IMG/VR virus record: IMGVR_UViG_3300027899_001488
Location: 1 to 31,503 of that record
Length of the DNA stretch: 31,503 nt
Reading direction: 5' to 3' (one strand)
Source: a virus
The notes under the pieces were generated by a model. The model was not told where the DNA came from. It was given only the letters and a program-made list of their open reading frames with translations, and made no database searches. A program made the position numbers and the translations under genes. This document shows, piece by piece, positions 2-31,503 of the stretch (the stretch's first letter is position 1; each line of letters opens with the position of its first letter).

Positions 2-304
2 TCAATGAAGTAGGTTGCCATCTATCTCGATACCATTTTCTCTCTTGTACACTTCCCAGTCAGCTGCATTCATGAGATCTGGAAATCTGGTTCCTCCGTT
101 GCATGATTCAGTTACGTATAACTTACCTGGAACAGAGCATCCACAGTTTACGCAATATTCATTGACCATACAATCGTCTTTACAAATAGTAGCACGGTAT
201 ATCACCTGTTCCTTTTCGTGAGCAGGTAATATGTGAATCCTGTCACCTAACATTTTGAGATTACCTTCAATAAACTGAAATATTTTCTTTGGAGTTATCT
301 TCAT
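2..304 (-). CDS. Small Cys-rich protein, probably zinc-binding, function unknown
   Basis: A 100-residue protein with six cysteines packed into residues 41-68 (C41, C45, C51, C54, C56, C68), including a CVNCGC knot, which suggests a small zinc-binding fold (inference). The C-terminal half has a distinctive RFPDLMNAADWEVYK stretch that I cannot assign to a named family. There is no signal peptide or membrane segment. Its ATG overlaps the stop of the sialic acid synthase gene as ATGA, so it is translationally linked to the end of the sugar gene run. A role in that pathway is possible from position alone. The TGA stop lies at the left edge of the window and the gene is complete. Confidence 0.6.
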   Translation of the reverse strand: MKITPKKIFQFIEGNLKMLGDRIHILPAHEKEQVIYRATICKDDCMVNEYCVNCGCSVPGKLYVTESCNGGTRFPDLMNAADWEVYKRENGIEIDGNLLH

Positions 305-1194
305 TTTCCTCTAAGTGTTTTACGTTTTGCTAATTCAGATTTTAATACTTTCCGCGGTCCATATCCACCACGCGCACTCTCAATATCTCGAATACTCTTT
401 ACTAGTTTTATTAAACCCTGCGGTTCAACTGATGCAAGCTGGTCGCTTCCCCAAAGGGATCTGTCAAGAGTTATATGCCGCTCAATCCATCTAGCTCCAA
501 GTAGAGTAGCTGCAATAGTAGTCGTGAGTCCATATTCATGACCAGAGTAACCGACTTCAAATTTCTTTTGAAAATCATGTCCTCGGTTAATATGATCAAG
601 ATATGTGATATAGTCTAAGTTCAATTCTTCGATTGGAGAAGGATAAGTAGAATTTGTATGAAACACAACATCAGGTTGACCCTCTGTGATAGCTAGATCA
701 ATCTCTTCTTGAGTGCTCATACCAGTTGAGATGAGTAGAAAATCTGAACTGTCTTTTGCATACTCTACTAAATCTAGATCATTGATTAAAGCAGATGGAA
801 TCTTTATCATTACTCCCCACTTTCCATTAGGAAGTTTAGTATGGAATCTTCTCATGAAATCAACTGACTTCTTATCCCAAACTGAAGCAAACCAGCCTAT
901 TTCTTTTTCACGACAGTACTCATCAATTTCATCGTATTGTGCTTGAGTAAGCTCAACATCAAGTTTATATTGAAAGTAGGTAGTCTCCTCCTTTCTCCAA
1001 GGAACAGACTTTGCCTTGGGTCTCTCGGCTGGTGGAATACATGATTCAGGGTCGCGCTTTTGAAATTTAACGTAATCAACACCAGCAACAACTGCAGCAT
1101 CAATCAGTTTTTTAACATTATACATAAAGGCAGTATGTGTTGGGCCGTATGCATAGTTTAATCCAATTTCTGCACAAATTATTGTTTTTTCCAT
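301..1194 (-). CDS. neuB: NeuB-type nonulosonic acid (sialic acid family) synthase lacking the SAF domain
   Basis: NeuB-family enzymes condense phosphoenolpyruvate with an N-acetylmannosamine-type sugar to give a nine-carbon nonulosonic acid. The 297-residue protein opens with the typical IICAEIGLN strand, has VKFQKR near residues 42-47, and ends the barrel with GYSGHE (H219) and IERHITLDR (H240). The 21-residue spacing between these two histidines equals that of the Mn-binding pair H215/H236 of meningococcal NeuB. The usual C-terminal SAF (antifreeze-like) domain of about 60 residues is absent: the chain ends just after the barrel. ATG at 1194 is chosen because homologues start a few residues before AEIG; ATG at 1212 would add six residues. 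It overlaps the upstream glycosyltransferase gene by 16 bases. Which sugar it makes (Neu, Leg, Pse or KDN) cannot be told. Confidence 0.9.
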   Translation of the reverse strand: MEKTIICAEIGLNYAYGPTHTAFMYNVKKLIDAAVVAGVDYVKFQKRDPESCIPPAERPKAKSVPWRKEETTYFQYKLDVELTQAQYDEIDEYCREKEIGWFASVWDKKSVDFMRRFHTKLPNGKWGVMIKIPSALINDLDLVEYAKDSSDFLLISTGMSTQEEIDLAITEGQPDVVFHTNSTYPSPIEELNLDYITYLDHINRGHDFQKKFEVGYSGHEYGLTTTIAATLLGARWIERHITLDRSLWGSDQLASVEPQGLIKLVKSIRDIESARGGYGPRKVLKSELAKRKTLRGK

Positions 1195-1853
1195 GTTATC
1201 CAAGGTGACCATTTTTTAGGTTTAGTATAATTACGAGCAAGACCATTTTTTGATAACCATGCTCTACCAATATCTCTTGAAAATTCAAAGCGTTGATCTA
1301 ATAGAACACTTTTATGTAAATGTAAATTACCTTTTTTATTTCTAAAAAGTATTTTCATTTGATATTCCGGATTCAAGTCTTCTACAAGATATGGTAGATA
1401 TTTTTTTATATGACTTGTTGAAAATAGACTTGGAACAAAGGTCGGTTCTGTAAGTTCTTTAATTCCAGTTGGACTATTTTTTTTATTTAGTACGCACTGT
1501 AGATTAGATGAACCTAGTTTAGATATAAGTTTAGATATTTCAACTGAACTTGAGAGCTCCCAATCGTCTTCTAAATGAAAAAAATATTGGCTTTTAACTT
1601 GAGAAAAACACCAAATAACTGCTTTTGCAAAATTTGCAGTTGCCGGTAAGTTAACTACGACTTTTCCAAAATATTTTTTAGCGATTTGTTCAACTGCACT
1701 AATATTAGTTGAAGTAGGCGAAGGATCTACATTAATATAAAGAGTACTTGCCTTAAAATCAATACCTTTTAATTTAGAACAATAGCTTGCGTACGTTCTA
1801 TTTAAGATTTCTGGTCTATTACAGGCAGTTGTTGTAAATTCAAATGCTATCAT
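1179..1853 (-). CDS. Glycosyltransferase, GT-A fold (family 2-like)
   Basis: A protein of about 224 residues whose N-terminus (IAFEFTTTACNRPEIL) looks like the first strand and sugar-nucleotide loop of GT2-type enzymes, followed by a clear metal-binding HLEDDWEL motif near residue 95. These are the hallmarks of a GT-A inverting transferase. There are no membrane segments, so it is probably cytosolic. ATG at 1853 is chosen because it overlaps the stop of the upstream gene as ATGA, the junction type used repeatedly in this run; the ATG at 1862 would add three residues. It lies between another transferase and neuB, so it probably adds a sugar to the same glycan. Donor and acceptor are unknown. 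Confidence 0.75.
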   Translation of the reverse strand: MIAFEFTTTACNRPEILNRTYASYCSKLKGIDFKASTLYINVDPSPTSTNISAVEQIAKKYFGKVVVNLPATANFAKAVIWCFSQVKSQYFFHLEDDWELSSSVEISKLISKLGSSNLQCVLNKKNSPTGIKELTEPTFVPSLFSTSHIKKYLPYLVEDLNPEYQMKILFRNKKGNLHLHKSVLLDQRFEFSRDIGRAWLSKNGLARNYTKPKKWSPWITWKKQ

Positions 1854-2680
1854 TTTTTCCATTGTGTGTATGGTATATTAAAGATATTTTCGCATTTAGT
1901 TAGATTGCCATTACCTGCTTTTGGAAATATAATTTTCTTAAAATTAAAAGTAGTGCAGTGTTCAGTTATTTCTCCAATTATTTTAACAAGTTCACGGGTT
2001 CGATTGCGGTCCATTATTCCTCGAGTAGTCGATTCATACTTTAGCAGAAGATTCTTTCGAACTGTCTCCATATGATGCATAGTTAAGTCAGTTGAAGAAA
2101 ACTCATGTGACTTAGTAGTATTTCCAGAAATTCCTCGAGTAGGATCGCATTTTACGAAAAATTTGTTACTCATTTTAGAAGAGCTTGAGATCTTACATAT
2201 AAACGGGACTCTGTTTGAATCATATCCTCTGTGTAGAGTAGGAATATTTACATAATTAATAAATCGAACAGCAGTCACATCATAGTTATACTTGATAATC
2301 TGCTCTTTGGCTTTGCTAAACTGACTTGAATCGTAAAATTCGTCAACATCCATACAAAGATAATGAGTACATCTATTACGTAAACATAAATTTAATCCAA
2401 CTTGTCTCTTTGCAGTTTCGTAACGTTTAGCGGTAGGTATAGCTGATCTTTCCTTACTATTTAGAGGTAAAAATGATGTAAATTCAATTAATTCATTAAT
2501 TTGACCAGTTTTAAGAAGATTTTTTAGAACATTAAAATCTTCAGTAGGTAAGATCTTTCCAAACCACGAAACCTTTTGATAAATTACACTAACGTATTCA
2601 ACGTGTTGTCTAATCTGCCGAATTGAGTGTTCGAGTAGCTCAACTCCATCAAAAACGATATATGATACTCCAAGTTTCAT
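1850..2680 (-). CDS. Probable glycosyltransferase (GT2/GT92-like)
   Basis: A 276-residue protein with an N-terminal strand and loop (LGVSYIVFDGVELLEHSIRQ) followed by an aspartate-rich LCMDVDEFYD motif near residue 130, the pattern seen in GT2- and GT92-like enzymes that bind a nucleotide sugar with a metal. The middle part carries the long insertion (SAIPTAKRYETAKRQ) that such enzymes have before the DxD strand. The ATG overlaps the stop of the DegT-type gene by one base (TAATG) and its own stop overlaps the next start, so it belongs to one polycistronic unit. No transmembrane helix is apparent. The sugar specificity cannot be read from sequence. Confidence 0.65.
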   Translation of the reverse strand: MKLGVSYIVFDGVELLEHSIRQIRQHVEYVSVIYQKVSWFGKILPTEDFNVLKNLLKTGQINELIEFTSFLPLNSKERSAIPTAKRYETAKRQVGLNLCLRNRCTHYLCMDVDEFYDSSQFSKAKEQIIKYNYDVTAVRFINYVNIPTLHRGYDSNRVPFICKISSSSKMSNKFFVKCDPTRGISGNTTKSHEFSSTDLTMHHMETVRKNLLLKYESTTRGIMDRNRTRELVKIIGEITEHCTTFNFKKIIFPKAGNGNLTKCENIFNIPYTQWKK

Positions 2681-3315
2681 TAAACTATTATTTTACTATT
2701 TTTAAAAATAGAAAATTCAGTTAGGTCTCTATATCCATTTAATTCACCTTGGTCAGTAACATGTTCTGGATAATTTTGTAATAAACAAAGTCCTTGTGCC
2801 GCTTCTTGAGGAGTCATGTACATATTCCATCCAAACGATGTAATATCATCTTCTTTATAGAATCGTTCACTTCTACCCTCGTATCTTGCGCGTTTAAACC
2901 ATTCTACTGCAGTAAGGTCGTCAGTTAATATCATTCCTCCTTTACCTATACCTAACTGTTTTTTTATGTGAAAAGATAAGCACATAAATGAGCCTGGGAT
3001 ATACATATTTGAAGTTAATCTTTTTGCAGAATCGTAGATTGGATATGGCGAAAGTTGGTATATTCCAGTCCAATGGTTTGTATCAGGACGTTTATCAAAA
3101 ATTACATCACCACCTGCCTGAATGATACTCATAGGTACTGACAGATACGTCTTCGATGGAATCGTTATTTCTTTTACTTCTAGATATTTACAGCACAAAA
3201 AAATAGCGTTGGTGCAGCTATCTACTGACACTGCGTATTTTGAACCAGTATATAATGCAAGTTCTTCTTCAAACATTTGAACAATTGAATACGGATTATG
3301 TTTTTTGATAGGCAT
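2680..3315 (-). CDS. Very short DegT/DnrJ/EryC1/StrS-type sugar aminotransferase
   Basis: PLP-dependent enzymes of this family put an amino group on a keto-sugar nucleotide. Visible motifs are the cofactor-binding region near VSVDSCTNAIFL (residues 30-40), the PLP-ring aspartate in YDSAKRL (D95), and the Schiff-base lysine in LSFHIKKQLGIGKGG (K119, matching the family pattern S-F-H-x-x-K). The chain has only 211 residues against about 370 for the family, so most of the C-terminal small domain is missing. The gene is not obviously broken: it ends one base into the next ATG and has no frameshifted continuation. It could be a minimal active enzyme, a partner of a host enzyme, or a relic. The neighbouring acyltransferase gene fits a pair making an N-acylated amino sugar. 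Confidence 0.75.
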   Translation of the reverse strand: MPIKKHNPYSIVQMFEEELALYTGSKYAVSVDSCTNAIFLCCKYLEVKEITIPSKTYLSVPMSIIQAGGDVIFDKRPDTNHWTGIYQLSPYPIYDSAKRLTSNMYIPGSFMCLSFHIKKQLGIGKGGMILTDDLTAVEWFKRARYEGRSERFYKEDDITSFGWNMYMTPQEAAQGLCLLQNYPEHVTDQGELNGYRDLTEFSIFKNSKIIV

Positions 3316-4103
3316 TATTCTTGATTATTTTTAGGTATGAATTTTGCTTTATTTGGTAAAAGATATTTCATAAAACTTATTTCCTCATCAGTTACATTCT
3401 TAGTATATGTTCGAGTACTGACATTAAAGTATGAAATATTGTCATTTCTAATTTCAGAATCATCTAATATTATTTTAATTGATGCTGGTGAGTTACATTC
3501 TTTATAGTAATTTAACATTTTTTTGTATTTTTCATCAAGAGTCACTTCTTTAAATTGAGGTGAAATCTTTCCAGTTAAATCCTTTGCAGGTGAACCTCCA
3601 TATATGTGATTTTCTTCCATATCTTTGGTTATTACACTCCCGACTAGTGCCATAGATTTATCTTTTGCATGTATTGGAGAAACAATACAGTGTCCGACGA
3701 ACCAACAGTCATTTCCTATTAACAGTGGGTGATTTGAATTATAATTACATCCTTCCAAATCATCGCCGTATAGAATATGTGACCATAACTGAGAGTGCGC
3801 ACCGATTCCACAATTATTACCAATAGTCGTTCCACCAATACTGTCAATGATTGTGTATTGTCCGATCCAAGCGTTATGTCCAATTGACAAAGGCTTATAT
3901 CCATGTAAATTAGTATGGTGATGTATTTTACAATAATCGCCTATTTGTAAATCGTCTACAATTATTTGCACGTTATCACCAATATATGTATTATCACCAA
4001 TCTTTACATGATGTGCTTTGCCGGTTAACCCTCGGATAGTCGCAGTCGGCGAGATAATTACGTTTTTTCCGAGTTCTAAATATTCAACTTGTATATTTTC
4101 CAT
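3315..4103 (-). CDS. Left-handed beta-helix (hexapeptide repeat) acyltransferase
   Basis: A 262-residue protein whose first two thirds are a run of hexapeptide repeats (for example VKIGDNTYIGDNVQI, LSIGHNAWIGQYTII, TTIGNNCGIGAHSQ), the signature of the left-handed beta-helix transferases that move acetyl or other acyl groups from CoA or ACP. A histidine in AHSQLWSH and the C-terminal YGGSPAKDL coil end resemble sugar O/N-acetyltransferases. The last 80 residues are a separate tail of unknown role. It abuts the short DegT-type aminotransferase with a one-base overlap, an arrangement like the aminotransferase plus acyltransferase pairs that build N-acylamino deoxysugars. Exact substrate unknown. 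Confidence 0.85.
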   Translation of the reverse strand: MENIQVEYLELGKNVIISPTATIRGLTGKAHHVKIGDNTYIGDNVQIIVDDLQIGDYCKIHHHTNLHGYKPLSIGHNAWIGQYTIIDSIGGTTIGNNCGIGAHSQLWSHILYGDDLEGCNYNSNHPLLIGNDCWFVGHCIVSPIHAKDKSMALVGSVITKDMEENHIYGGSPAKDLTGKISPQFKEVTLDEKYKKMLNYYKECNSPASIKIILDDSEIRNDNISYFNVSTRTYTKNVTDEEISFMKYLLPNKAKFIPKNNQE

Positions 4104-4104
4104 A

Positions 4105-4893
4105 TTACTTTTTATTTTTCCAAAAGGATATATCTAGCCATTCATTATTACAGAAGATATTACGAGTTCCTTCTGAAACATCTTCTCGAACCTTACCGAT
4201 GTATTGTGATTCTTTCTTTATTAAATTAATTAAATTAGGGATATTTTTGTATTCAGTAAAATTAGGAAGATTAGTATGGCCTATACCTAATGTTTTTCTT
4301 CCCATATGTCCAAGTTCAAACATTGCAGTGCACCCTCCCTTTGGAGTAGGCTTAATATAAACAAAGCATTTTTTATAGAACTCTTCAATTAATTTTGGAA
4401 GTGTAATGTTATCTGTATAGATAAACATGTCTTCTCCAAAATAATTAATTAAAGGAAGAATTACTTCATTCCATTGAAAATAAGCGGACCTCGTTCCTTT
4501 AACACCACGATAGACATATATTTTATCTCCTAATGGACATGAATAAAAGTTAGAATAATCCTTAACTTGAAGATATAGCTGCTTATGCGAAATTTTATTG
4601 CTCTTTAAAATTTTTGAAAATTCTCCAGGATAAGCTAGTGTGAATCCTTTGCCACTAGATATGACTGATTTTACACAAAGTATAGAGTTATTTCGTATAT
4701 CGCCTCCTCCCCAAATTATAATTGAATATGACTTGTGTAAAGTAAGTGCGGTTAAGTCAGAGTTAGTATATAATCCAAAAAAAATTGCAGGTTGAGCTGG
4801 GTCTGAATATCTTTCTAATTTCCAAAAATTTCTAAAATTTTCTCCGAAGGTTGTCTCAAGAGTTGGAGATATGTAAACTTGACGTATCCTCAT
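4105..4893 (-). CDS. Probable glycosyltransferase, GT-B-like, unassigned family
   Basis: A 262-residue protein. The C-terminal half contains CFVYIKPTPKGGCTAMFELG followed by GRKTLGIGHTNLPNF, resembling the nucleotide-sugar binding region of GT-B transferases, where an acidic residue in an E-x-G/M segment binds the donor. The N-terminal half has a Rossmann-like SIIIWGGGDIRN strand-loop. Overall similarity to any named family is weak, so the call rests on these segments and on the surrounding glycan genes. Its ATG overlaps the stop of the GT2 gene upstream as ATGA. It could instead be a glycan-modifying enzyme of another type. Confidence 0.5.
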   Translation of the reverse strand: MRIRQVYISPTLETTFGENFRNFWKLERYSDPAQPAIFFGLYTNSDLTALTLHKSYSIIIWGGGDIRNNSILCVKSVISSGKGFTLAYPGEFSKILKSNKISHKQLYLQVKDYSNFYSCPLGDKIYVYRGVKGTRSAYFQWNEVILPLINYFGEDMFIYTDNITLPKLIEEFYKKCFVYIKPTPKGGCTAMFELGHMGRKTLGIGHTNLPNFTEYKNIPNLINLIKKESQYIGKVREDVSEGTRNIFCNNEWLDISFWKNKK

Positions 4894-5612
4894 ATGCTCT
4901 TGAATTTATTTTTTTCTGAGGTACGTCGTGCATTATAATCTGCGTATAAATATTCTTGTGAAAGTTTTGGTGGAGACGTTTCATTACTTCCAGGATTGTG
5001 CCTATCCATCTGTTCAGAATAAAATGGATTAGTTATATACTGCTTGCGTCTACGTAGCTTAGAGGATGCAGCTTTTTTACATAACTCTTTTGCAAAATAT
5101 CCCATTTTAAGACCCTTTGGTAAATTAAAACCTCCAGTCGCATCAAACAGTGGGCGATATATCATAGTTCCGCCTAGACCAGTTACTTGCCTATAATACG
5201 CGTGATCATTTATTTTTACTAGTTGAGTATCAGTGTCCTTAATAGGAAAATTAAAGAAGGTTACCATTCCACAATCTTTAAATTCATTAAGTATTTGAAT
5301 TGAAGCTGTATCCCAACCTCGGTGAAACCACATATCATCACACGACATTACAAAATATTCAGAAGAAGTTGCTCTGATTATTTTATTAAATGATTCAGCA
5401 CTTCCTAAATTTTCAGAATTTATTATAACTTCGTCGATTTTACCAAAGGCTTTCATTTCTAAGAGCCACTCGTTGGTTCCATCATTAGAATTATCTGAAA
5501 TAACAAGAAGTCTATATGGTATCTTAGTGGAAGCAATAATCGACCATATGCAATTTTTTAAATAATCAAGACGATTATATGTTACAACACAAATATCTAC
5601 TAGACTCTGCAT
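4890..5612 (-). CDS. Family 2 glycosyltransferase
   Basis: A 240-residue GT-A protein with the full GT2 pattern: VDICVVTYNRLDYLKNC at the start, VISDNSNDGT for the nucleotide-binding aspartate (about residues 36-45), SAESFNKIIRAT, and the metal-binding SCDDMWF near residue 94. After the catalytic domain a LGGTMIYRP segment fits the acceptor-binding helix region of the family. No membrane helix, so it probably acts at the cytosolic face on a glycan intermediate. It sits in the middle of the minus-strand sugar run, with ATGA coupling to the next gene and a three-base gap to the preceding one. Donor sugar unknown. Confidence 0.85.
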   Translation of the reverse strand: MQSLVDICVVTYNRLDYLKNCIWSIIASTKIPYRLLVISDNSNDGTNEWLLEMKAFGKIDEVIINSENLGSAESFNKIIRATSSEYFVMSCDDMWFHRGWDTASIQILNEFKDCGMVTFFNFPIKDTDTQLVKINDHAYYRQVTGLGGTMIYRPLFDATGGFNLPKGLKMGYFAKELCKKAASSKLRRRKQYITNPFYSEQMDRHNPGSNETSPPKLSQEYLYADYNARRTSEKNKFKSI

Positions 5613-5614
5613 AT

Positions 5615-6196
5615 TTACTTATTTTTTTTAGATTTATTATTTCCATGTATTACCCATTTACAATATCCTTCAGGTAATAATGTTATATTTTTTGTAAGTT
5701 CATACATTTGTCCATGTTTTCTTTCATTGACATGATGAATTACAGTTTTCTGACATAAACTTAAAAACATTGAACATCTAGTATTATGATATTTAGGCAA
5801 ATGAGTATCTGTTTTTTTCCAAAAATCAAACATAGTTGGCTGTGCATGTATAATAAAGCATTCAAATCTTTTGATATTTTCAGAATACTTTGATTGTATC
5901 GTATCGATATATTTCGGAGACATCCAATCATCACAATCATGTCTAGTTTGAATATTAGGTTTATGTGATTTTACATATTCAATAAATCCATAGTTATCGT
6001 ATACTGCATCAAATTGGAAATCTAATTTTTCTCTTAAGTAACTTTCATCTTGAATATTTGTGATAAGCACCCAAGTAAAATTTTTTTGAATTTGAGATTT
6101 TAATGCAGGAATTAAAATAGCTTGTGTAATAGTTAGATATTTATCTAGTAATTCCCTATCTGTAAAATTCATCCTAGATACGATAATATGCTTCAT
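5615..6196 (-). CDS. Putative rhamnosyltransferase-family glycosyltransferase
   Basis: A 193-residue protein resembling the putative rhamnosyl transferase family: an opening HIIVSRMNFTDRELL, an ALKSQIQKNFTWVLIT strand-helix typical of the family, and the metal-binding RHDCDDWMSPKYI near residues 103-115, where related proteins have R-x-D-D-D. Family members are usually longer (about 250 residues), so the C-terminal part is reduced. It follows the 500-residue transferase gene by one base and precedes the GT2 gene by two. The donor sugar name comes from the family label only and is not shown by the sequence. Confidence 0.7.
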   Translation of the reverse strand: MKHIIVSRMNFTDRELLDKYLTITQAILIPALKSQIQKNFTWVLITNIQDESYLREKLDFQFDAVYDNYGFIEYVKSHKPNIQTRHDCDDWMSPKYIDTIQSKYSENIKRFECFIIHAQPTMFDFWKKTDTHLPKYHNTRCSMFLSLCQKTVIHHVNERKHGQMYELTKNITLLPEGYCKWVIHGNNKSKKNK

Positions 6197-6197
6197 A

Positions 6198-7709
6198 TTA
6201 AGATATTTTTTTAAATTCTACGATTTGTGGAATAATTGGAATACTCCAATTACGATTATTTTCAATCCATTTTGCGTGAGTAATTCTAGCTGGAGACCTG
6301 TAGTTAGTTTTAACGTTTTGCGTAAGACTCTCTGAATGAATTCTTCTATAAAAAAGAGAATATTTTAATTCAATACTAACAACTCCATTCTTTAAGCATC
6401 GCTTGATAAATTCAGTATCAGCTGCACATTTCCATGGCTGAAATCCTCCAATTTTATTAAAAGTATTTTTTGAAATAAAAAATACTCCATGTGCGACTGA
6501 CTTGTGTAAATTAGTGCTGATATACGGATTATAATTAAAATCTAGATACTTAAATCGAATTGGTCGGTCTATTGAATATCTTGAAAAGATATAGTTTAGT
6601 AGATTTTTATGCATAATATCATCTGCATCAAAGAAAAGATAATTATCATACTTTGCAAGTGAAGTTAAGGTATTTCTAATAATATATGGCCCAACTGATT
6701 CATTTGAAAAGTAAATTTTCAAATGTGGATAGTTATTTTTAATAGTGTTAAGATAATTTAAAGTATCTAAACAGTTATCAATGCCTACTAATATTTCATA
6801 TTCACCTAAACTTGTTTGAGAGATAATTGAGTCAAGACATTCTTTAATATACTTCTTTACTGAAAACGCAGGAATTATTATGGAAACCGGATATTTAGTG
6901 ACGTCAGTAATGAATTCTTCAGCAGATGCTGCAATATACTCATTATTAGTATTCCTAATAAGCGTGCGATCTACTCGTACAGACCGAGGCTTGGCAAGCG
7001 TTACCGGTACACTTAATTTTGCGACCTTTGCCATAGAGGTTTTGTTCTTTTCAAGCCACACTCTACCTATTTTTGAATAATTTGAGGAAGCGCTAGTAAT
7101 ATTATCATATGTGATAATCTTAGAATTATTTAGAGTATGCCCAAGCTGATTAAATTTTTGATCTGGCACAGTCGACGATATAACAATATCAGTATTTGAA
7201 AATACTGGTACATCTGGTAGAATCTGGGAAAGGGTCTCTGAAAGATTAGAACTAGCTACGAGTTGAGGATCCTCGGATACACTTGAAAATATCGCAGGTG
7301 ACACATCTAAATACATTACGGACCAATCTAGAGATCGAAATGCTGTGCCTCGTTTAAGAAGAGAAGCAATTTGGTTAACTATGATACTCATACTAGAAAA
7401 GTATAGAGTATTTTCTGTACTTATTGTAAATACATTTAACTTTAGAGAAGAGTATATTTTCTCTAATCTGCTGGGCGAGTTTGCCTTTAAATTAGAGAAG
7501 ATTGAACTAACTGGAATCACCGAAATATCAGAATATAATAGTCTAAGATGATCTAGATTAGTAGAGGACAAGGGAAGCTCAGGGTGTACCATGAGCTGGA
7601 TCTTTCCTCTAAATTGAGGATTTCGATTAATTAGTGTAGAGATCGCAGTTCTAGTAAAGTGAAAATATATGTCACTAGCTTCAGTTATTACACGGAGAGG
7701 TTGACTCAT
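6198..7709 (-). CDS. Two-domain protein with C-terminal GT2 glycosyltransferase
   Basis: A protein of about 503 residues. Residues from about 275 to the end are a GT2 domain: YPVSIIIPAFSVKKYIKEC, EILVGIDNCLD, then FFDADDIMHKN as the metal-binding motif (about residue 362), and a GGFQPWKCAADTEFIKR segment that matches the GG-x-x-x..ED-x-E/D acceptor and base region of GT2 polymerising or LPS enzymes. The first 270 residues are not recognised; they contain alternating strands and helices and may be a second transferase-like domain. ATG at 7709 is chosen because the longer reading at 7721 begins with TTG. It still overlaps the cytidylyltransferase gene by 29 bases, the deepest overlap of the run. 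Confidence 0.8.
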   Translation of the reverse strand: MSQPLRVITEASDIYFHFTRTAISTLINRNPQFRGKIQLMVHPELPLSSTNLDHLRLLYSDISVIPVSSIFSNLKANSPSRLEKIYSSLKLNVFTISTENTLYFSSMSIIVNQIASLLKRGTAFRSLDWSVMYLDVSPAIFSSVSEDPQLVASSNLSETLSQILPDVPVFSNTDIVISSTVPDQKFNQLGHTLNNSKIITYDNITSASSNYSKIGRVWLEKNKTSMAKVAKLSVPVTLAKPRSVRVDRTLIRNTNNEYIAASAEEFITDVTKYPVSIIIPAFSVKKYIKECLDSIISQTSLGEYEILVGIDNCLDTLNYLNTIKNNYPHLKIYFSNESVGPYIIRNTLTSLAKYDNYLFFDADDIMHKNLLNYIFSRYSIDRPIRFKYLDFNYNPYISTNLHKSVAHGVFFISKNTFNKIGGFQPWKCAADTEFIKRCLKNGVVSIELKYSLFYRRIHSESLTQNVKTNYRSPARITHAKWIENNRNWSIPIIPQIVEFKKIS

Positions 7710-8346
7710 TGAACTTATCAAGATCCTTTTTTAGATCAATATCTATAACTCTGGGAATCGTATAGAATATTGTAGTGTCGCAATACATGTTGCTGTTTAG
7801 CTTATATATGGTGTCTGCTCTAAAAATACTTATGTAGTGACTTAATTCAAAGCAAACTGGATAGTCTTGGCGTCTGTATAGATTGTGTGGGACTACCTGT
7901 TTTCCAAATAGCGGATTAGTAGGATCTTCGGTAAGACAGAGATATGGGTGACTCTGAACCTCCTGTCGGCATAACAAGGATTGGCTCATCTCTCGATTAT
8001 TGGAGTCGACCATTAGTAGATATGCTGAGAGCACATCGCTCCATCTCCGTTCAGGGTAGGTAACATATAATAAAACGATAAAATCTGACCTCTTTGGCTG
8101 TATCTTATCGTATGCGTGAATGATTACGTCCTTTATTGAAGTCTCGTCCTCAGCTAGAGCAGAGGGACGATCTATTATATTGACTCCATACTCTTCGGCA
8201 ATCTTGATAATTTCTGAGTCATCTGTTGTTACCCAAGTAGAAGACAAGAGCTCTTCTGGAATAATCGCTAGAGTGTGTCGTAGAAGAGTTCTGTTCTTAA
8301 AAGGTAAACCCTTTGAACCGAGTCGAGCTGGAATAACAATTTTCAT
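7681..8346 (-). CDS. neuA: CMP-nonulosonate (acylneuraminate-type) cytidylyltransferase
   Basis: NeuA-type enzymes activate a nonulosonic acid with CTP to give the CMP-sugar used by transferases. The 221-residue protein begins with the family signature IPARLGSKGLPFKN (residues 5-18), contains WVTTDDSEIIKIAEEYG, the RPSALAEDETS segment, and a late DIDLKKDLDKF, all in the usual order and at the usual length of about 220-230. KdsB-type enzymes differ in the first motif, so a sialic, legionaminic or pseudaminic acid activator is more likely. It is paired with neuB at the other end of the same run. The ATG overlaps the DUF115-like gene stop as ATGA. Host sugar metabolism is bypassed only if the ketose product of NeuB is its substrate (inference). 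Confidence 0.85.
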   Translation of the reverse strand: MKIVIPARLGSKGLPFKNRTLLRHTLAIIPEELLSSTWVTTDDSEIIKIAEEYGVNIIDRPSALAEDETSIKDVIIHAYDKIQPKRSDFIVLLYVTYPERRWSDVLSAYLLMVDSNNREMSQSLLCRQEVQSHPYLCLTEDPTNPLFGKQVVPHNLYRRQDYPVCFELSHYISIFRADTIYKLNSNMYCDTTIFYTIPRVIDIDLKKDLDKFNESTSPCNN

Positions 8347-8960
8347 AGTTTATCGAAATCCGATAAGGTTATTTTAGGTATATCAAGTCGACTTGCCTGA
8401 CTTAAATTATAGAGCTTAACTCCACGTTTTTCAAATTCAGATCTTAATTGCTGATATGAATTATTTACCCTCTTCAAATAATTTACTTTTATGACTGGAT
8501 GCGGACCGTCTGACTTATTATAGAAGTGACCGTCTGTGAAGTCTACACCAATCAGTCCAATATTCGTTGCTCCAAGCTTGTATGCAAGAATAGTTGCAAC
8601 GTAAGGTGAATTAACAAAATGGTCAATAACGTCAACTCTATCTAGATTCTTTAATTCTCTTGAGCCTAGACTAAAGTGAACTATGCTCTTATGCCGCCAA
8701 CCCTTTACACAAGTAAATAGGTGTTTTGCAGTAGACTTATTAATGATATCCTTTCGGTTTCCATGAAATCTGCCAGGGTGATCTGTAACAAGTAGATAGG
8801 TAGGTTGAAATAGTAGAGGGACATCGTTTACTCCTATTGTAATGTAATTTGAATATGTGTTGCGCAGATCAGTCAAAGAGGTACCGCATCCACACACAAT
8901 TATTTTAGAACCCTTGTGAATATTCTTGAAATCTACTAAGCTTTTTATTATTGCTGACAC
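8343..8960 (-). CDS. DUF115/Maf-like protein, possible nonulosonic acid transferase
   Basis: A 205-residue protein with a Rossmann-like glycine-rich start, KIIVCGCGTSLTDL (residues 19-32), then ITIGVNDVPLLFQPTYLLVTD, an order typical of the DUF115 family found in motility accessory factor (Maf) proteins and sialyltransferase-like enzymes. A second nucleotide-fold strand is ATNIGLIGVDFTDG. Maf proteins transfer pseudaminic or legionaminic acid to flagellin, and this gene is coupled by ATGA to the CMP-nonulosonate cytidylyltransferase, so a CMP-sugar transferase role is a reasonable inference. It is the first gene of the minus-strand run. The start is GTG at 8960; no internal ATG precedes the glycine-rich motif. 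Confidence 0.65.
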   Translation of the reverse strand: MSAIIKSLVDFKNIHKGSKIIVCGCGTSLTDLRNTYSNYITIGVNDVPLLFQPTYLLVTDHPGRFHGNRKDIINKSTAKHLFTCVKGWRHKSIVHFSLGSRELKNLDRVDVIDHFVNSPYVATILAYKLGATNIGLIGVDFTDGHFYNKSDGPHPVIKVNYLKRVNNSYQQLRSEFEKRGVKLYNLSQASRLDIPKITLSDFDKL

Positions 8961-9038: not shown

Positions 9039-10022
9039 ATGGATCATTACGCTATACTTGGAGTCCCACAGAACGCCACAGAATCAGAAATAAAGAAAGC
9101 TTATCGAAAATTAGCACTACAGTATCACCCAGATAAAAATCAAGGAGATAAGAGATCTGAAGAGCAGTTTAAAAAGATAGCAGACGCGTACTCTGTACTT
9201 GGTGATGCAAATAGGAAGAAAAAATACGATGACTCTATAAATCCTGCAAAGGATGGCAGACACAAGACTTGGAGCTTCAATGAGTTTGAAAGCCAGTTTA
9301 GTTCTGCTGAATTTAGAGCAAACTCAAGTGCCAGAGGAAGATCAAGCCAAGGAAAGGTGCATGTTCCTCCGCCAGATACCGTATATCTAGATATCAATAT
9401 TAATCAAACTATCTCGCTAAGTGATGCTGTCCTAGGTAAAAAGATAGAACTTTCATTTACTAGAAAGAAGATAAATTACACTGGAGTAAACGGAGCAAAT
9501 ATCAATTTTATCAAGGAGGACGAGGAGAAGGAGATAACTATCCAGTTAAACCTAAAGAGGGTCTTTCTTCAAATTAAAAAAGAGGCAGGACGGTCCACTG
9601 CAAAGGTTCGAGTGAGTAAACTTGGCAACGAGGATATTCATAATAGACAGAATCTTTGGGGAGATATCGAAAAGATTCCTCTATTTGGAGATCTATATGT
9701 TAATATAGAAATAGTTATTCCTGAAAAGGTTTATCTTGAGGAAAACAATATTATTCATCATGTAGAGATTCCTCTATATAAGACCCTTATTGAGGACGAG
9801 AAGATCAGAATTGAGACAATATTTAATAAGAAGTACGATGCAGAGATCAATGAACCTAGGATTTTGAATGACCTGAAGTTCATATTGCCTAACGAAGGGA
9901 TACTAAATGATAAGAATCAATTAGGTAATTACATAATTAAATTTGATATTCTTACTCCAGATATTTCGTCACTTTCTAAAGATAAAAAGGATCAACTATT
10001 AACGATATTATCGACTCTTTAG
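9039..10022 (+). CDS. dnaJ: DnaJ-like (J-domain) co-chaperone without zinc finger
   Basis: J-proteins deliver clients to DnaK and stimulate its ATPase. Residues 1-66 are a complete J-domain ([20 protein letters not shown]) with the essential HPD at residues 30-32 and KYDDS at its end. A Gly/Ser-poor linker follows, then a C-terminal beta-rich client domain from about residue 110 ([38 protein letters not shown]), as in class B/CbpA-type proteins. The CxxCxGxG zinc finger of class A DnaJ is absent. At 327 residues it is close to CbpA length. No DnaK is visible, so it must use the host's. It lies 59 bases upstream of the protease-scaffold and capsid genes, which suggests help with head protein folding. 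Confidence 0.9.
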
Positions 10023-15828: not shown

Positions 15829-16881
15829 TTAGTAAAGAAGATGAGGTTTTGCTTCAAGTTGGCCGGCTTGGGTCACAACTACGTACTCTGGCATATATGT
15901 AGTAAGATCAGAAGCACCAGCATAGGAAAGTGCAGAACGTACTCCTTCCATTAAACCAATAATAATTGGCGATACTCCTCCCTTATACGGAACATGGGTA
16001 GATTCACCCTCTACATTACGGATATCTTGTCCATTTGCAGCCTTTGTATCTAACGAGGCAGATCCTCTATAAGTCTTATAGAGTAGACCATTTGCACGTT
16101 TTGTAATTTTTCCTGGAGACTCGTCTGTTCCTGCAAGTAGAGAACCTAACATTACAGTATTTGCACCGATTGCTAGAGCTTTTGCAATATCTCCACTTGA
16201 TCTAATTCCACCGTCTGCCATAATAGGAACAGTCGCACATTCAGAAATTTGCTGTATGCAAGTAACGTTCGGAACTCCAAAACCAGTAGTAATTCTAGTA
16301 GTGCAGAGTGATCCGCCACCAATTCCTACACGTAATCCGTCTGCACCAGCTTCCTGTAAATCTATTGCAGCTTGGGTAGTTGCAATATTTCCAGCGATGA
16401 TATCTACTCCAGGGAAAGCATCTTTACAGAACTTAATCATATTAATCACCTTTAGATGGTGACCGTGGGCAACGTCTATCATTAGGACATTTGCGCCTGA
16501 GTTTACTAATAGAGTAGCACGACGACGGTCTTCTTCTGGATTAATTCCGATTGCTGCAACTACTGGAGAAACAGTATTAGCCAATTCGCCAGACTCGCCA
16601 AGCCATTCATGAGTTCTGATAATTCGATCAGAGAGATTCTTAATTTGATTGGCCTGTTCTTCTGCTGTCATAAACCGATGAATACACCCAGCTCCACCTA
16701 GAGTAAATAGAGCAAAAGCCATGGCTTCATCGCAAACAGTGTCCATTGGAGAGGCAACTATTGGGATTCTAAGTTCAAAGTTCCTACTCAGTTGAGTTTT
16801 TAGTGAAATATTTGGTCTGGAAGAGATTTCCGAGTATGCAGGAACAAGTTGAATATCGTCGTATGTTAAATAGGTTTGCAT
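15829..16881 (-). CDS. guaB: IMP dehydrogenase / GMP reductase family, without CBS domains
   Basis: IMPDH oxidises IMP to XMP on the way to GTP; GMP reductase runs GMP to IMP. The 350-residue TIM-barrel protein has YLTYDDIQLVPAYSEISS, IPIVASPMDTVCDEAMA, the catalytic-cysteine loop GIGGGSLCTTRITTGFGVPN, VPIMADGGIRSSGDIAKALA and VPYKGGV. Typical IMPDH has about 490 residues with two CBS domains inserted after the first barrel strands; here that place holds only a short linker, so the enzyme is of the CBS-free type and may escape GTP/ATP feedback. YRGSASLDT in the flap differs from YRGMGS of IMPDH and YGMSS of GMP reductase, so I cannot settle the direction. Confidence 0.85.
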   Translation of the reverse strand: MQTYLTYDDIQLVPAYSEISSRPNISLKTQLSRNFELRIPIVASPMDTVCDEAMAFALFTLGGAGCIHRFMTAEEQANQIKNLSDRIIRTHEWLGESGELANTVSPVVAAIGINPEEDRRRATLLVNSGANVLMIDVAHGHHLKVINMIKFCKDAFPGVDIIAGNIATTQAAIDLQEAGADGLRVGIGGGSLCTTRITTGFGVPNVTCIQQISECATVPIMADGGIRSSGDIAKALAIGANTVMLGSLLAGTDESPGKITKRANGLLYKTYRGSASLDTKAANGQDIRNVEGESTHVPYKGGVSPIIIGLMEGVRSALSYAGASDLTTYMPEYVVVTQAGQLEAKPHLLY

Positions 16882-19437: not shown

Positions 19438-20859
19438 TTAATTAATTTCATTTAGGTAGAATATCTTATCTAGAAAATAGGAGAGAGGTATGCTCATCTC
19501 CCTAGAACTAGAATCCCAAGTAGAATATTGAAATACTATATTCTCTTCTGATAGAATACAAGAGAGACAGTATTCAATAGGATTTCCTTCAAAGCTAAAT
19601 GGAATACTGTAGCCGACTGGTCTACCTGAAACATCTAGTAAAACTAGCCAGTGTAGATATTTTCTAGGAGAATCGTGATGAACACTGTGTACTACTGCAA
19701 GGCGGTGCTCTCCATATTCAATTACTGAAGAACTTCCTCTAAATTTATTGAAGATAATTGGAGTTGGGTGCTCATTAACTAGTGTCAAATCATCGTATGA
19801 ATAAGTAGTTAATGGAAACCACTTATAGATTAGCGTAGAACTGTCTAAGAAGGTCCAGTTCTTTTCGCAATACTCTCCAGATGGACTATCAAATACTTTA
19901 TTTACGTAGATGATACGATTTTCACGATCGTATTCTCCAGTACAAATACGAATTGCTTCTGTTTTAGTTAAATTGCAGGCAGTTGCTAGAAATTTAATCT
20001 CGCCGTTTGCTTCATAGAGTCTAAGGTCCTCTAATCCAACTATTCTAGCACCTGGTCGAATATCTACTGAATATAATTCAGTCATTTCACCGTGGCCTAA
20101 AAGATAATTTCTAGTTTCAACTGGACGAACTGATGTATTTTCAAAATTCATATGATTCCCGTCACTTGCATAGTGATATGCACCATTCGATTGATCGATT
20201 ACATAATTTACTTGCCTAATATTTACGATCTCTTCTCCTTCTGAAGTGATAATTTTACATGGAGAACTATTGATAAATCCATTTGGCGGAGCTACATCGA
20301 ATGTGCTACTCTCACCGCCATTACCTAATAGGGTAGTTACATAATATTTTAAATTATTGAATACATTTTCACTATTCGGAAGAGGTCCAAGGTTTAGATA
20401 GTTTAGTGAATTGACAAGTCCAGCGAGTCTATCCTCAGGAAAGAGATAATAGTGTAGGATAGTTAGTTCATAATCAAATAATCTATGTAGATAGATTTCA
20501 GATTCAACATACAATCCATCACTATGTGGATAGGGTATATTTACACCTAATTTATAGAGGTGATATGCTTTATTGTGCTGTGCTGTGTTTCTATATTGCA
20601 AACAAAGATGATATATTGCTTCAGAACGAGTAGGATGTACTTCATATCCTGACATTACCCACTCTTCTGCACTGGCAAGATCAGAAAGTGCAATATAACA
20701 TTTTGAAATCAGGTAGTGGCAGTACCAGATATCTTCTTTCCAAGTAAAACCCTCAATTGCTAACTTATAGAAATCAATAGCCGTTTGATATTGTCCAGAA
20801 GAACGATTCTCTTGTGCAATGTCAAATACGCTTAGTTCATTAGATGTATCTTCGATCAT
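19438..20859 (-). CDS. TPR domain joined to a five-bladed beta-propeller (GH130/GT108-like)
   Basis: A 473-residue protein. Residues about 8-130 are TPR-type helix pairs (FDIAQENRSSGQYQTAIDFY; SKCYIALSDLASAEEWV). From about residue 215 onward the chain is beta-rich and carries GLEDLRLYEANGEIKFLATA, EKNWTFLDSSTLIYKWFPL and FRGSSSVIEYGEHRLAVVHS, the G-x-E-D-x-R, K-N-W and R-G-S segments typical of five-bladed GH130/GT108-like propellers (mannoside phosphorylases and mannosyltransferases). Similar TPR plus propeller proteins occur in polysaccharide loci. It probably acts on a glycan, so it is an odd presence between two topoisomerase subunit genes. Substrate unknown. Confidence 0.7.
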   Translation of the reverse strand: MIEDTSNELSVFDIAQENRSSGQYQTAIDFYKLAIEGFTWKEDIWYCHYLISKCYIALSDLASAEEWVMSGYEVHPTRSEAIYHLCLQYRNTAQHNKAYHLYKLGVNIPYPHSDGLYVESEIYLHRLFDYELTILHYYLFPEDRLAGLVNSLNYLNLGPLPNSENVFNNLKYYVTTLLGNGGESSTFDVAPPNGFINSSPCKIITSEGEEIVNIRQVNYVIDQSNGAYHYASDGNHMNFENTSVRPVETRNYLLGHGEMTELYSVDIRPGARIVGLEDLRLYEANGEIKFLATACNLTKTEAIRICTGEYDRENRIIYVNKVFDSPSGEYCEKNWTFLDSSTLIYKWFPLTTYSYDDLTLVNEHPTPIIFNKFRGSSSVIEYGEHRLAVVHSVHHDSPRKYLHWLVLLDVSGRPVGYSIPFSFEGNPIEYCLSCILSEENIVFQYSTWDSSSREMSIPLSYFLDKIFYLNEIN

Positions 20860-26004: not shown

Positions 26005-26790
26005 TTACTTACATTGAGCTTGAAAGTACCACAGTTTTCTACCAGATGCATCTATTAATGAACTATCTGACTTTCCATAACATTGAATCCAATCAGAAAA
26101 TCCGCCAGCTGGAATATCGAATGGATTTTTCCAATCTTTGAGCTGACCTCCACCAATTAAGTATGCTTCAATTGGAATCTGGGTACAGAGTTCAAGAAGC
26201 AGAGTATTATTAAAAATTGCATCACGAGATTTTTCAAAAGGGTCTTGATCTGCACGAAATAAGATCTCGGCACGTAGATAATTGCCAATACCATTGAAAT
26301 ATCTCTGATCCATTAAGAGAAGATGAATTGGCTTATCAAAATGTTTACGATGGATATTTTTAAAGATATTCTCCTTAAATAGACTAGTCTCTGCAACTGG
26401 ACAAGGTCCACGATTACTTGAAAAGTCTTCTACCCATTTCCATTTAGCAAATCGACGAGTGTCAACAAGACACATTCTTTTTCTTCCAAGATGAGTATTG
26501 AAGGAGAGGTGTGTGTGGTTAGGACGATCAGTCCCACACAGTTTCCAAAATCCAGACATGCCCATACTTACGCTAATTCTACGTTCAGTTGGGTAGCCCT
26601 CCTCAGTAATTAGTAAGAGTTCCTTACCTCTGGCCCTCGCGGTGAGCTTAAAAACCTGAAGATTCGAAGGTTGAACTAGACTCAACCTGTTAGATACTTC
26701 TGGTGAAGTAGAAATTGAAGTAAAGTCTAGACCGTCACATATTGAGTTAATATACTCGGCCATTATTTTTATCTCAGCTAATTCGGGCAT
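26005..26790 (-). CDS. Fpg/Nei-family DNA glycosylase with a degenerate zinc finger
   Basis: These enzymes remove oxidised bases from DNA and cut the abasic site. The 261-residue protein starts MPELAEIK, keeping the nucleophile proline P2 and E3, and has the H2TH-type segment MDQRYFNGIGNYLRAEILFRA (roughly residues 159-178). The C-terminal finger that normally holds four cysteines in YGR..PC..CG....C..C is reduced to QCYGKSDSSLIDASGRK and an end AQCK, so most zinc ligands are lost. A conserved arginine on the hairpin (GRK) remains, as in the zincless fingers of NEIL1 and of mimivirus Nei. It starts at the divergent gap facing the late gene block, so repair in a head-bound phage is the expected role. 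Confidence 0.85.
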   Translation of the reverse strand: MPELAEIKIMAEYINSICDGLDFTSISTSPEVSNRLSLVQPSNLQVFKLTARARGKELLLITEEGYPTERRISVSMGMSGFWKLCGTDRPNHTHLSFNTHLGRKRMCLVDTRRFAKWKWVEDFSSNRGPCPVAETSLFKENIFKNIHRKHFDKPIHLLLMDQRYFNGIGNYLRAEILFRADQDPFEKSRDAIFNNTLLLELCTQIPIEAYLIGGGQLKDWKNPFDIPAGGFSDWIQCYGKSDSSLIDASGRKLWYFQAQCK

Positions 26791-29884: not shown

Positions 29885-30748
29885 TTATTTGATATTTTGA
29901 TTTATCCAATTGAGTAATTCATCCTCATTACTTTGAGTATTTTCTCGATATGTATGGAAAACATCTGATAAGTCTCTAGTTGGTTCTCCAGAATAGTTTA
30001 CAAGATCTGCATTTACTGAAGGAATTGACTCAGCAGTAAATTCACTATCTAACATTTTTTCAACGATCGAATAGTGATGTTCATAGATATGAAATGAATT
30101 TGCAATATGAGTGTAAGTACCTAACTGTAATTCAGGATAGACATACTTCAGGTGAGCAACCATTTGACTTTGAAGAATTGCAAAGAATGCAATATCTGTC
30201 GGAAGACCCCAGATCACATCGTTACTTCGCATAGAGACAGTAAGATTTAAACGATTATCTCTGATTTGAAATATTCCGTACATCGTGCAAACAAAATCTT
30301 TATTGCCTTTATGCTGATGCTCTGGAAGATTGAAATGTAATACTGCTTGTCTAGAATCTTTATCGTTAACTAGAGAAGTGAGTGCCCAATTGTATTGAGA
30401 ATACCCAAATCTATTCTTTTTAGTAAATAGTAGATGTCCATATGATGAGTTGACTGTGCCATCCTCATTTTGAATAGAATTCCAAAACTTTGCATACTCC
30501 TGAATAAAAGAAGTATCGTTTCTTCCCATAAAATACCAGAGAAGTTCAGCGGCAATATATTTCTTTTGAGAAGATCGAGTCTCATTGGAATAGAGACAAG
30601 ATAGAGGATTCTCTATTACTAGAGCAACATTAGTATTCTCCTTTATGTTTAAATCTCTAGGTCTAGTATCGTATTCTGGATTCTTCATCAAGTCAGTAAG
30701 ACTTTCTCTGTATACTGTTGAAAAATCGGGTCCTTGGTAAACTAACAT
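29885..30748 (-). CDS. Thymidylate synthase-family enzyme, T4 gp42-like (possible dCMP hydroxymethylase)
   Basis: The family methylates dUMP (ThyA) or hydroxymethylates dCMP (T4 gp42) using methylene-tetrahydrofolate. The 287-residue chain has AAELLWYFMGRND, NSSYGHLLFT, KDFVCTMYG with the nucleophile C154, MRSNDVIWGLPTD (R174, D177, D185) and SFHIYEHH. Against E. coli ThyA, all motif positions shift by 8 (C146, R166, D169, N177), and the pyrimidine-reading Asn177 is Asp185. T4 gp42 has Asp at that place (D179) and shares D-F-x-C-T and IRD..N..MRSNDV. So dCMP is a likely substrate. Some phage thymidylate synthases also have Asp, so the product remains open. A dCMP deaminase is its neighbour. 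Confidence 0.82.
   Translation of the reverse strand: MLVYQGPDFSTVYRESLTDLMKNPEYDTRPRDLNIKENTNVALVIENPLSCLYSNETRSSQKKYIAAELLWYFMGRNDTSFIQEYAKFWNSIQNEDGTVNSSYGHLLFTKKNRFGYSQYNWALTSLVNDKDSRQAVLHFNLPEHQHKGNKDFVCTMYGIFQIRDNRLNLTVSMRSNDVIWGLPTDIAFFAILQSQMVAHLKYVYPELQLGTYTHIANSFHIYEHHYSIVEKMLDSEFTAESIPSVNADLVNYSGEPTRDLSDVFHTYRENTQSNEDELLNWINQNIK

Positions 30749-30825: not shown

Positions 30826-31503
<678 letters not shown>

Follow-up and report, generated by a model that had tools for sequence, protein, structure and literature searches.

The window analyzed here, a 31,503-bp virus record of IMG/VR (IMGVR_UViG_3300027899_001488), carries an island of 11 open reading frames (ORFs) that runs on the minus strand from position 8960 down to 301, between a DnaJ gene and a cysteine-rich 100-aa ORF. 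Comparison with related phages showed that three of its genes, coding for a NeuB-family synthase, a NeuA-type cytidylyltransferase and a stand-alone protein with the fold of the Maf and CstII transferases, form an invariant trio around an exchangeable interior. This arrangement suggests that the large freshwater phages of the window's lineage produce an acidic sugar coat of their own and diversify it. The reading that we prefer, and to which we give about even credence, is that of a cytoplasmic glycosylation system in which a nonulosonic acid (NulO), most likely Kdn or a close relative, is made, activated and transferred, most likely to a structural protein of the phage. Chance is excluded: the score of the NeuB-family match is well beyond its threshold, and independent contigs show the same order of genes.

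A preliminary description of this DNA had placed a NulO gene run at 301-8960 and treated it as one system. All the genes that it named were found there by Pfam searches and fold matches (Table 1), and the junctions between neighbouring ORFs, which range from -41 to +2 bp, are compatible with translational coupling. The run is therefore present, but its parts do not behave alike, the trio being invariant and the interior exchangeable. Six (probable) glycosyltransferases had also been counted. Five are supported besides the Maf-fold protein, and the total of six stands only if the latter replaces the product of 4105-4893, because this protein has no detectable family (neither Pfam nor PDB gave a credible match). 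The product of 1850-2680 had no match in a Pfam family search; the top fold matches of its model were all glycosyltransferases, such as ThuS (Z 13.0) and TarP (Z 12.4).

In the lineage of the window phage, the capsid, protease and DnaJ genes are always on one strand, while on the other strand the transferase and NeuA are followed by the variable block, then by NeuB and in most cases by the 100-aa ORF; the DnaJ gene is divergent from the island and adjacent to it in the relatives too. Thirteen loci were complete, in the sense that both island ends were visible, and the trio is found in 13 of 13 by construction. In these loci the transferase and NeuA come first and NeuB last, and the block that they bracket measures 2.3-8.9 kb, all on a single strand. 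At 35% identity its ORFs make up 64 families; 49 of these are confined to one locus, and even the commonest reach no more than 5 of the 13. The overlap between the transferase and NeuA genes, 4 bp long in 10 of 12 relatives, recurs together with a downstream NeuB, and a distant 380-kb phage (G013) has a transferase-like gene, NeuA and NeuB directly next to one another. Between the window and its relative L232, amino-acid changes were rarer than silent ones, in the trio and in interior genes alike.

Judged by its residues, the synthase is a member of the PF03102 ulosonate synthases. It keeps the catalytic residues E15, K49, K137, S162, Y190, S223, H225, E244, H246 and D257, and the equivalents of E25, K53, K129, Y186, H215, E234, H236 and D247 (Nm numbering) are invariant in 28 phage/viral and 25 bacterial NeuB members. 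The position of Nm E134 is occupied by L142 and D214 is changed to G; position 134 is non-acidic in all members without the SAF domain, and Glu or Asp in the reference synthases of N-acetylneuraminic (Neu5Ac) acid, pseudaminic acid (Pse) and Kdn-9-phosphate. The phage enzyme itself has no SAF domain, and its 303-aa length is conserved among the phage relatives. A canonical synthase of Neu5Ac, Pse or legionaminic acid (Leg), that is NeuB, PseI or LegI, was rejected on the missing SAF domain and the missing acidic residue at Nm 134; the TIGR03569 and TIGR03586 scores were far under cut-off. A KdsA/DAHP-type aldolase was ruled out as well, every PDB match of the synthase being a NeuB-type enzyme, so that the unrelated aldolases which the preliminary description had envisaged as possible best hits did not appear.

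The scan for NeuB gave 97 viral stretches that encode a relative, and 80 bacterial relatives were taken from many phyla. In a tree obtained by a quick method and with long reference branches, the phage NeuB grouped with the bacterial SAF-less enzymes, apart from the Neu5Ac, Pse and SpsE references and from the orthologues of BT1714. Direct membership in the branch of the BT1714 Kdn-9-phosphate synthase, whose orthologues were found through their BT1713-like phosphatase neighbours, was discarded, since the phage NeuB falls outside it. No assayed member of the SAF-less clade was found in the literature searched. A KdsC-type phosphatase is fused or at most 4 kb away in 68 of the 80 bacterial SAF-less NeuB loci (32 fused to NeuA). 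Some loci have other arrangements. In L126:7485-8912 and L193:547 a single ORF of 475 aa joins a KdsC-type phosphatase to a SAF-less NeuB, and in L125, L110, L152 and L170 (Bacteroidota, Ignavibacteria) the SAF-less NeuB stands with a split transketolase, a class-III aminotransferase, a short-chain dehydrogenase/reductase (SDR), a KdsC-type phosphatase and often a fatty-acid hydroxylase. The viral contigs L039-L081, some of which may be cellular rather than viral, encode a SAF-less NeuB at about 47% identity and often a second, longer NeuB at 24-30%.

The NeuA protein has an invariant P-loop (xPARxxSKGxPxKN, with P6, R8, S11, G13, P15, K17 and N18) and a C-terminal DxD metal site in which D202 is invariant and D204 nearly so; its family profile matches the cytidine monophosphate (CMP)-Neu5Ac synthetase 1eyr (1.9e-21). 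The first island gene had been described as DUF115/Maf-like, and the fold agrees: the model ranked Maf 5mu5 first (Z 15.1 over 186 residues), followed by MptE 8sd5 (Z 12.1) and CstII 1ro8 (Z 10.4). PF01973 was detected in 14 of 18 members of this family (best 1.9e-8), and the CST-I family PF06002 in one orthologue (5.2e-5). A three-domain Maf flagellin glycosyltransferase was dismissed, the 205-aa protein corresponding to the central domain only, and on the strength of the model we regard it as a candidate NulO transferase with the Maf_flag10/CstII fold. In a search for cultured phage relatives, NeuB matched only LR756508 (484 kb, uncultured), a marine single-amplified-genome virus and a Moritella record, NeuA matched LR756508 and Moritella, and the transferase only part of one Caulobacter phage protein. 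Neither NeuB nor NeuA matched PHROGs at E 0.01.

The prohead protease was used as an independent probe, which avoids selecting for the island. Among 23 contigs with sequence on the island side, the site was filled in 10, empty in 2 and occupied by a NeuB remnant only in 11. At the empty sites (L228 and L229) the 100-aa ORF lies directly beside DnaJ. The remnants (L215-L225, e.g. L216:8081-8869 and L218:8097-8861), which represent at least four distinct sequences because near-duplicates are included, have 37-39% identity, or 47% over a fragment; they still match PF03102 (5.7e-7) and are without residues matching K53, K129, Y186, H215, H236 and others. Among the remnants silent changes are commoner than amino-acid changes, with an approximate dN/dS of 0.09-0.25 where computable and dS near saturation, and the remnant ORF is a candidate pseudoenzyme. 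Eight remnant records of up to 176 kb were searched whole for NeuA and the transferase and gave neither, while both positive controls scored. Loss of the partners thus accompanies loss of the catalytic residues of NeuB, which supports the assignment of the three genes to one pathway.

As to the sugar, the preliminary description had spoken of a sialic type. A nonulosonate island is indeed supported, but with neither a SAF domain nor an acidic residue at Nm 134 the product is probably not Neu5Ac, Leg or Pse. In 15 phage records we found no NeuC-type epimerase and one match, in G021 only, to a PseB/LegB-type dehydratase; with no such epimerase in the relatives, the precursor would be supplied by the host. 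In Bacteroides and haptophytes Kdn is made from mannose-6-phosphate and phosphoenolpyruvate (PEP) (PMC6200933), and the same origin would explain why the phage records have no NeuC-type epimerase and almost no PseB/LegB-type dehydratase. Streptomyces walls carry Kdn polymers (PMC11481543, PMC7831098), for which SCO4873-4882 is named as the gene cluster (PMC13011467). The SAF-less enzyme is the sole NeuB in seven of eight Streptomyces genomes, the eighth having a further borderline match, and such near-exclusive occurrence speaks for Kdn and against Neu5Ac, Leg and Pse. The KdsC-type phosphatase from a bacterial NeuB locus had its best PDB match in B. thetaiotaomicron 3e81/3e8m (E=7e-37), with KdsC proteins close behind. 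We take 3e81/3e8m to be the Kdn-9-phosphate phosphatase (PMC6200933). From these gene comparisons, the probability that the sugar is Kdn or a close relative is put at about one half. The earlier proposal that the phage encodes synthesis, activation and probably transfer of a NulO holds for the genes of the synthase, the CMP-activating enzyme and the Maf/CstII-fold transferase; synthesis, however, is only partly encoded, no NeuC-type epimerase being found in 15 phage records and no 9-phosphate phosphatase in 22.

According to the cytoplasmic glycosylation reading, NeuB would condense PEP with a six-carbon sugar of the host, most likely mannose-6-phosphate, into a nonulosonic acid, with Kdn or a close relative as the likeliest product; if this product is phosphorylated, a host phosphatase would remove the phosphate; NeuA would convert the product to the CMP-sugar, and the stand-alone Maf/CstII-fold protein would transfer it. 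The interior glycosyltransferases, aminotransferase and acyltransferase would build and decorate the remaining glycan and, because interior genes are exchanged between phages, the structure that surrounds the constant acidic sugar would differ from phage to phage. Most likely a structural protein of the phage would be the acceptor, and it would receive the glycan in the cytoplasm, either ahead of assembly or while assembly proceeds. What the sequences show are the gene families, the folds, the conservation of active sites, the constant trio with its variable interior and the filled, empty and remnant states of the site; the rest of this scheme, namely the substrate, the sugar, the transfer reaction, the acceptor and the purpose, is what we infer. 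A simple hydropathy scan, in which three membrane-protein controls scored 3-5 segments, detected no protein with at least three hydrophobic segments, either among the 11 proteins of the island and its 100-aa flanking product or among the 90 interior ORFs of the 13 loci; three proteins had one weak segment. Since no multi-pass membrane protein is encoded, the phage is unlikely to have a flippase, polymerase or ligase of its own, which speaks for an acceptor in the cytoplasm. Maf enzymes move NulOs from CMP-NulOs straight onto Ser/Thr residues of flagellin and also accept other CMP-ulosonates (PMC11339370). The island site adjoins the prohead protease and capsid genes, and given these neighbours a virion protein would be the most economical acceptor. 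A more specific version, which we hold only tentatively and consider doubtful, is that CMP-Kdn or a new NulO is derived from a central host metabolite and put directly on virion proteins by a Maf reduced to one domain, beneath a glycan that varies strongly between phages, and that sister phages keep the dead synthase in another role.

Several observations weigh against a Kdn-based glycosylation of the virion. NeuA has RRQDYPxCFExSHY instead of the Neu5Ac-type sugar-binding motif RQxxP...NG, and the fold of the transferase extends to pterin and thiamine pyrophosphokinases. No homologue of a KdsC-type or 9-phosphate phosphatase was found in 22 phage records, although the Kdn-9-phosphate phosphatase query matched 5 of 5 bacterial genomes; this absence is not fatal, because the haptophyte too is without a recognisable phosphatase. 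Kdn is also not certain because the BT1714-type synthases form another branch and are acidic at Nm 134. In one contig (L214:3860-4591; the contig is the same as L085) NeuB is degenerate while the transferase and NeuA are retained, and the locus may be either an intermediate state or one that uses host-supplied NulO. Finally, we know of no T4-type capsid glycosylation.

The same genes might act on the host surface, by adding a NulO side chain to lipid-linked lipopolysaccharide or capsule intermediates so that rivals cannot adsorb, or progeny cannot re-adsorb to debris. This is a strong rival, even if we consider it on the whole rather unlikely: the glycosyltransferase islands of pelagimyophages have been interpreted likewise (PMC7029224), prophage enzymes modify the NulOs of Acinetobacter capsules (PMC12053666, PMC6586298), the CstII fold works on lipooligosaccharide and the variable interior looks like O-antigen loci. 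However, flippase, polymerase, ligase and multi-pass proteins are all missing from the 90 interior ORFs of the 13 loci, so that surface remodelling would depend wholly on host export, and a lytic-type T4-like phage would be short of time for replacing a surface.

Glycosylation of phage DNA is an established phenomenon, and the island glycans could be added to hydroxymethylated DNA as a protection against restriction, provided that the phage makes hydroxymethyl-dCMP. In fact, the thymidylate-synthase homologue at 29885-30748 (minus strand) is nearer to CMP/dCMP hydroxymethylases (5jnh and 1b49; 4e-21 and 2e-20) than to thymidylate synthases (1e-12), it has the Asn-to-Asp change of T4 gp42, and hydroxymethylase-like homologues at 53-66% are found in 10 relatives; the DNA of this phage may contain hydroxymethylcytosine. 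DNA decoration is nevertheless the weaker rival and very improbable as the role of the island, because the transferase has the fold of NulO transferases that act on proteins or glycans, known DNA glucosyltransferases were unmatched in family searches of the window, and the 380-kb trio phage G013 has no hydroxymethylase match (its record may be incomplete). That the trio makes another ulosonate, or that NeuB was recruited to another aldol condensation and the glycan has no NulO, is improbable too. It would account for the lack of the SAF domain and of Nm E134, for the D214 change, for the divergent sugar motif of NeuA and for the Bacteroidota and Chlorobi relatives beside transketolase, class-III aminotransferase and SDR genes, a context that fits no NulO pathway known to us; but the PEP, metal and catalytic residues of NeuB are invariant, and NeuB is linked to a CMP-ulosonate-type cytidylyltransferase in phages and many bacteria; in the phages it has a protein of sialyltransferase-like fold linked to it as well.

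The window, with a G+C content of 34.5% and no tRNA genes in its 31,503 bp, comes from a large T4-like aquatic phage, of which it covers only a part. Its T4-like genes code for topoisomerase II subunits, a helicase, the prohead protease and the major head protein, and the capsid protein is closest to those of huge uncultured phages and Lak phages. An IMP dehydrogenase/GMP reductase homologue lies at 15829-16881 (minus strand; PF00478, 1.2e-100), and a phage gene resembling formamidopyrimidine-DNA glycosylase at 26005-26790 (minus strand). The ORF at 19438-20859 (minus strand) has weak tetratricopeptide-repeat matches N-terminally, and its C-terminal half recalls GH130-type enzymes, by eye only and unconfirmed. 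A collagen-like gene with Gly-X-Y repeats (30829-31503, plus strand) leaves the window at the contig end; the minus-strand ORF 30879-31493 of the first-pass list is its antisense shadow.

Table 1. Genes of the island and of its two boundaries.
Position	Strand	Product	Evidence and remarks
2..304	-	Cysteine-rich 100-aa ORF, conserved	phrog_13610 4.1e-19; one boundary of the island site
301..1212	-	NeuB-family ulosonate synthase, 303 aa, TIM-barrel only, no SAF	PF03102 4.5e-57; last island gene
1179..1862	-	Probable GT2-type glycosyltransferase, 227 aa, variable interior	PF00535 5.6e-4, below cut-off; orthologues in 5/13 loci
1850..2680	-	GT-A fold glycosyltransferase, 276 aa, variable interior	DVDEF motif; predicted structure pLDDT 75.6
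2680..3315	-	Short DegT/DnrJ sugar aminotransferase, 211 aa	PF01041 2.7e-20; orthologues likewise 209-219 aa
3315..4103	-	Hexapeptide-repeat sugar acyltransferase, 262 aa	PF00132 2e-11; WcaF-family 5.7e-18
4105..4893	-	262-aa protein, no family match	Orthologues at 47-71%
4890..5612	-	GT2 glycosyltransferase, 240 aa	PF00535 1.9e-18
5615..6196	-	Probable rhamnosyltransferase-like glycosyltransferase, 193 aa	PF11316 3.6e-5, 23.8 bits vs cut-off 23
6198..7721	-	507-aa protein, C-terminal GT2 domain (residues 280-381)	PF00535 7.7e-13
7681..8346	-	NeuA-type CMP-ulosonate cytidylyltransferase, 221 aa	PF02348 3.2e-7; PseF 5.5e-14; second island gene
8343..8960	-	Stand-alone Maf/CstII-fold NulO transferase candidate, 205 aa	AlphaFold pLDDT 93.7; first island gene
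9039..10022	+	DnaJ co-chaperone	PF00226 9.8e-28; other boundary, ahead of the genes for the prohead protease and the major capsid protein

Among known systems, the pathway to Kdn, a deaminated NulO (B. thetaiotaomicron BT1713-1715, the haptophyte Kdn-9-phosphate synthetase and the teichulosonic acid loci of Streptomyces) is similar in the NeuB-family condensation of mannose-6-phosphate with PEP and in CMP activation. The Streptomyces loci share the SAF-less NeuB, there with a NeuA-HAD fusion. Unlike this pathway, the phage has no phosphatase, its NeuB is on another branch than the BT1714 orthologues with their acidic residue 134, and a Maf-fold transferase and variable glycosyltransferases are added. 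Maf flagellin glycosyltransferases (PF01973) and CstII/GT42 sialyltransferases share the central Maf domain fold and the linkage to NulO genes, whereas the phage protein stands alone with 205 aa, without the N- and C-terminal Maf domains, without flagellin and at about 12-18% identity. Glycosylation of mycobacteriophage virions resembles the proposed system in its phage-encoded glycosyltransferases and differs in its hosts. To our knowledge, no NulO synthase or CMP activation takes part in it. Capsid and tail subunits are reported to be glycosylated there (Freeman 2023, as relayed in PMC12619734). The islands of pelagimyophages and cyanomyophages (PMC7029224) also belong to large aquatic phages with several glycosyltransferases; these phages and the moraphages are T4-like or related to Lak phages. 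Moraphages, large aquatic phages of Bacteroidota hosts with core glycosyltransferases, DnaJ and affinity to Lak phages (PMC12619734), could be the same lineage as the window phage. Neither account describes the NulO trio frame, and a look through both texts for sialic and for neuraminate or acetylneuraminate gave nothing. The epaA/epaB genes and O-acetyltransferases of Acinetobacter prophages (PMC12053666, PMC6586298) are likewise phage genes acting on nonulosonates, but they modify the NulO of a capsule made by the host, whereas here synthase and activating enzyme are themselves phage genes. In the open-licence literature we found no account of a phage system with NeuB, NeuA and a Maf-fold transferase as constant frame, so that the system appears, as had been proposed, to be undescribed in the literature searched.

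Nonulosonates are usually regarded as sugars of cells. If the proposed reading is true, acidic surface glycans are made and varied by some phages themselves, which bears on adsorption, recognition and the exclusion of superinfecting phages. For NulO transfer, the minimal Maf-fold protein would offer a small candidate tool, and the SAF-less NeuB clade, widespread in bacteria, would gain a testable product, Kdn.

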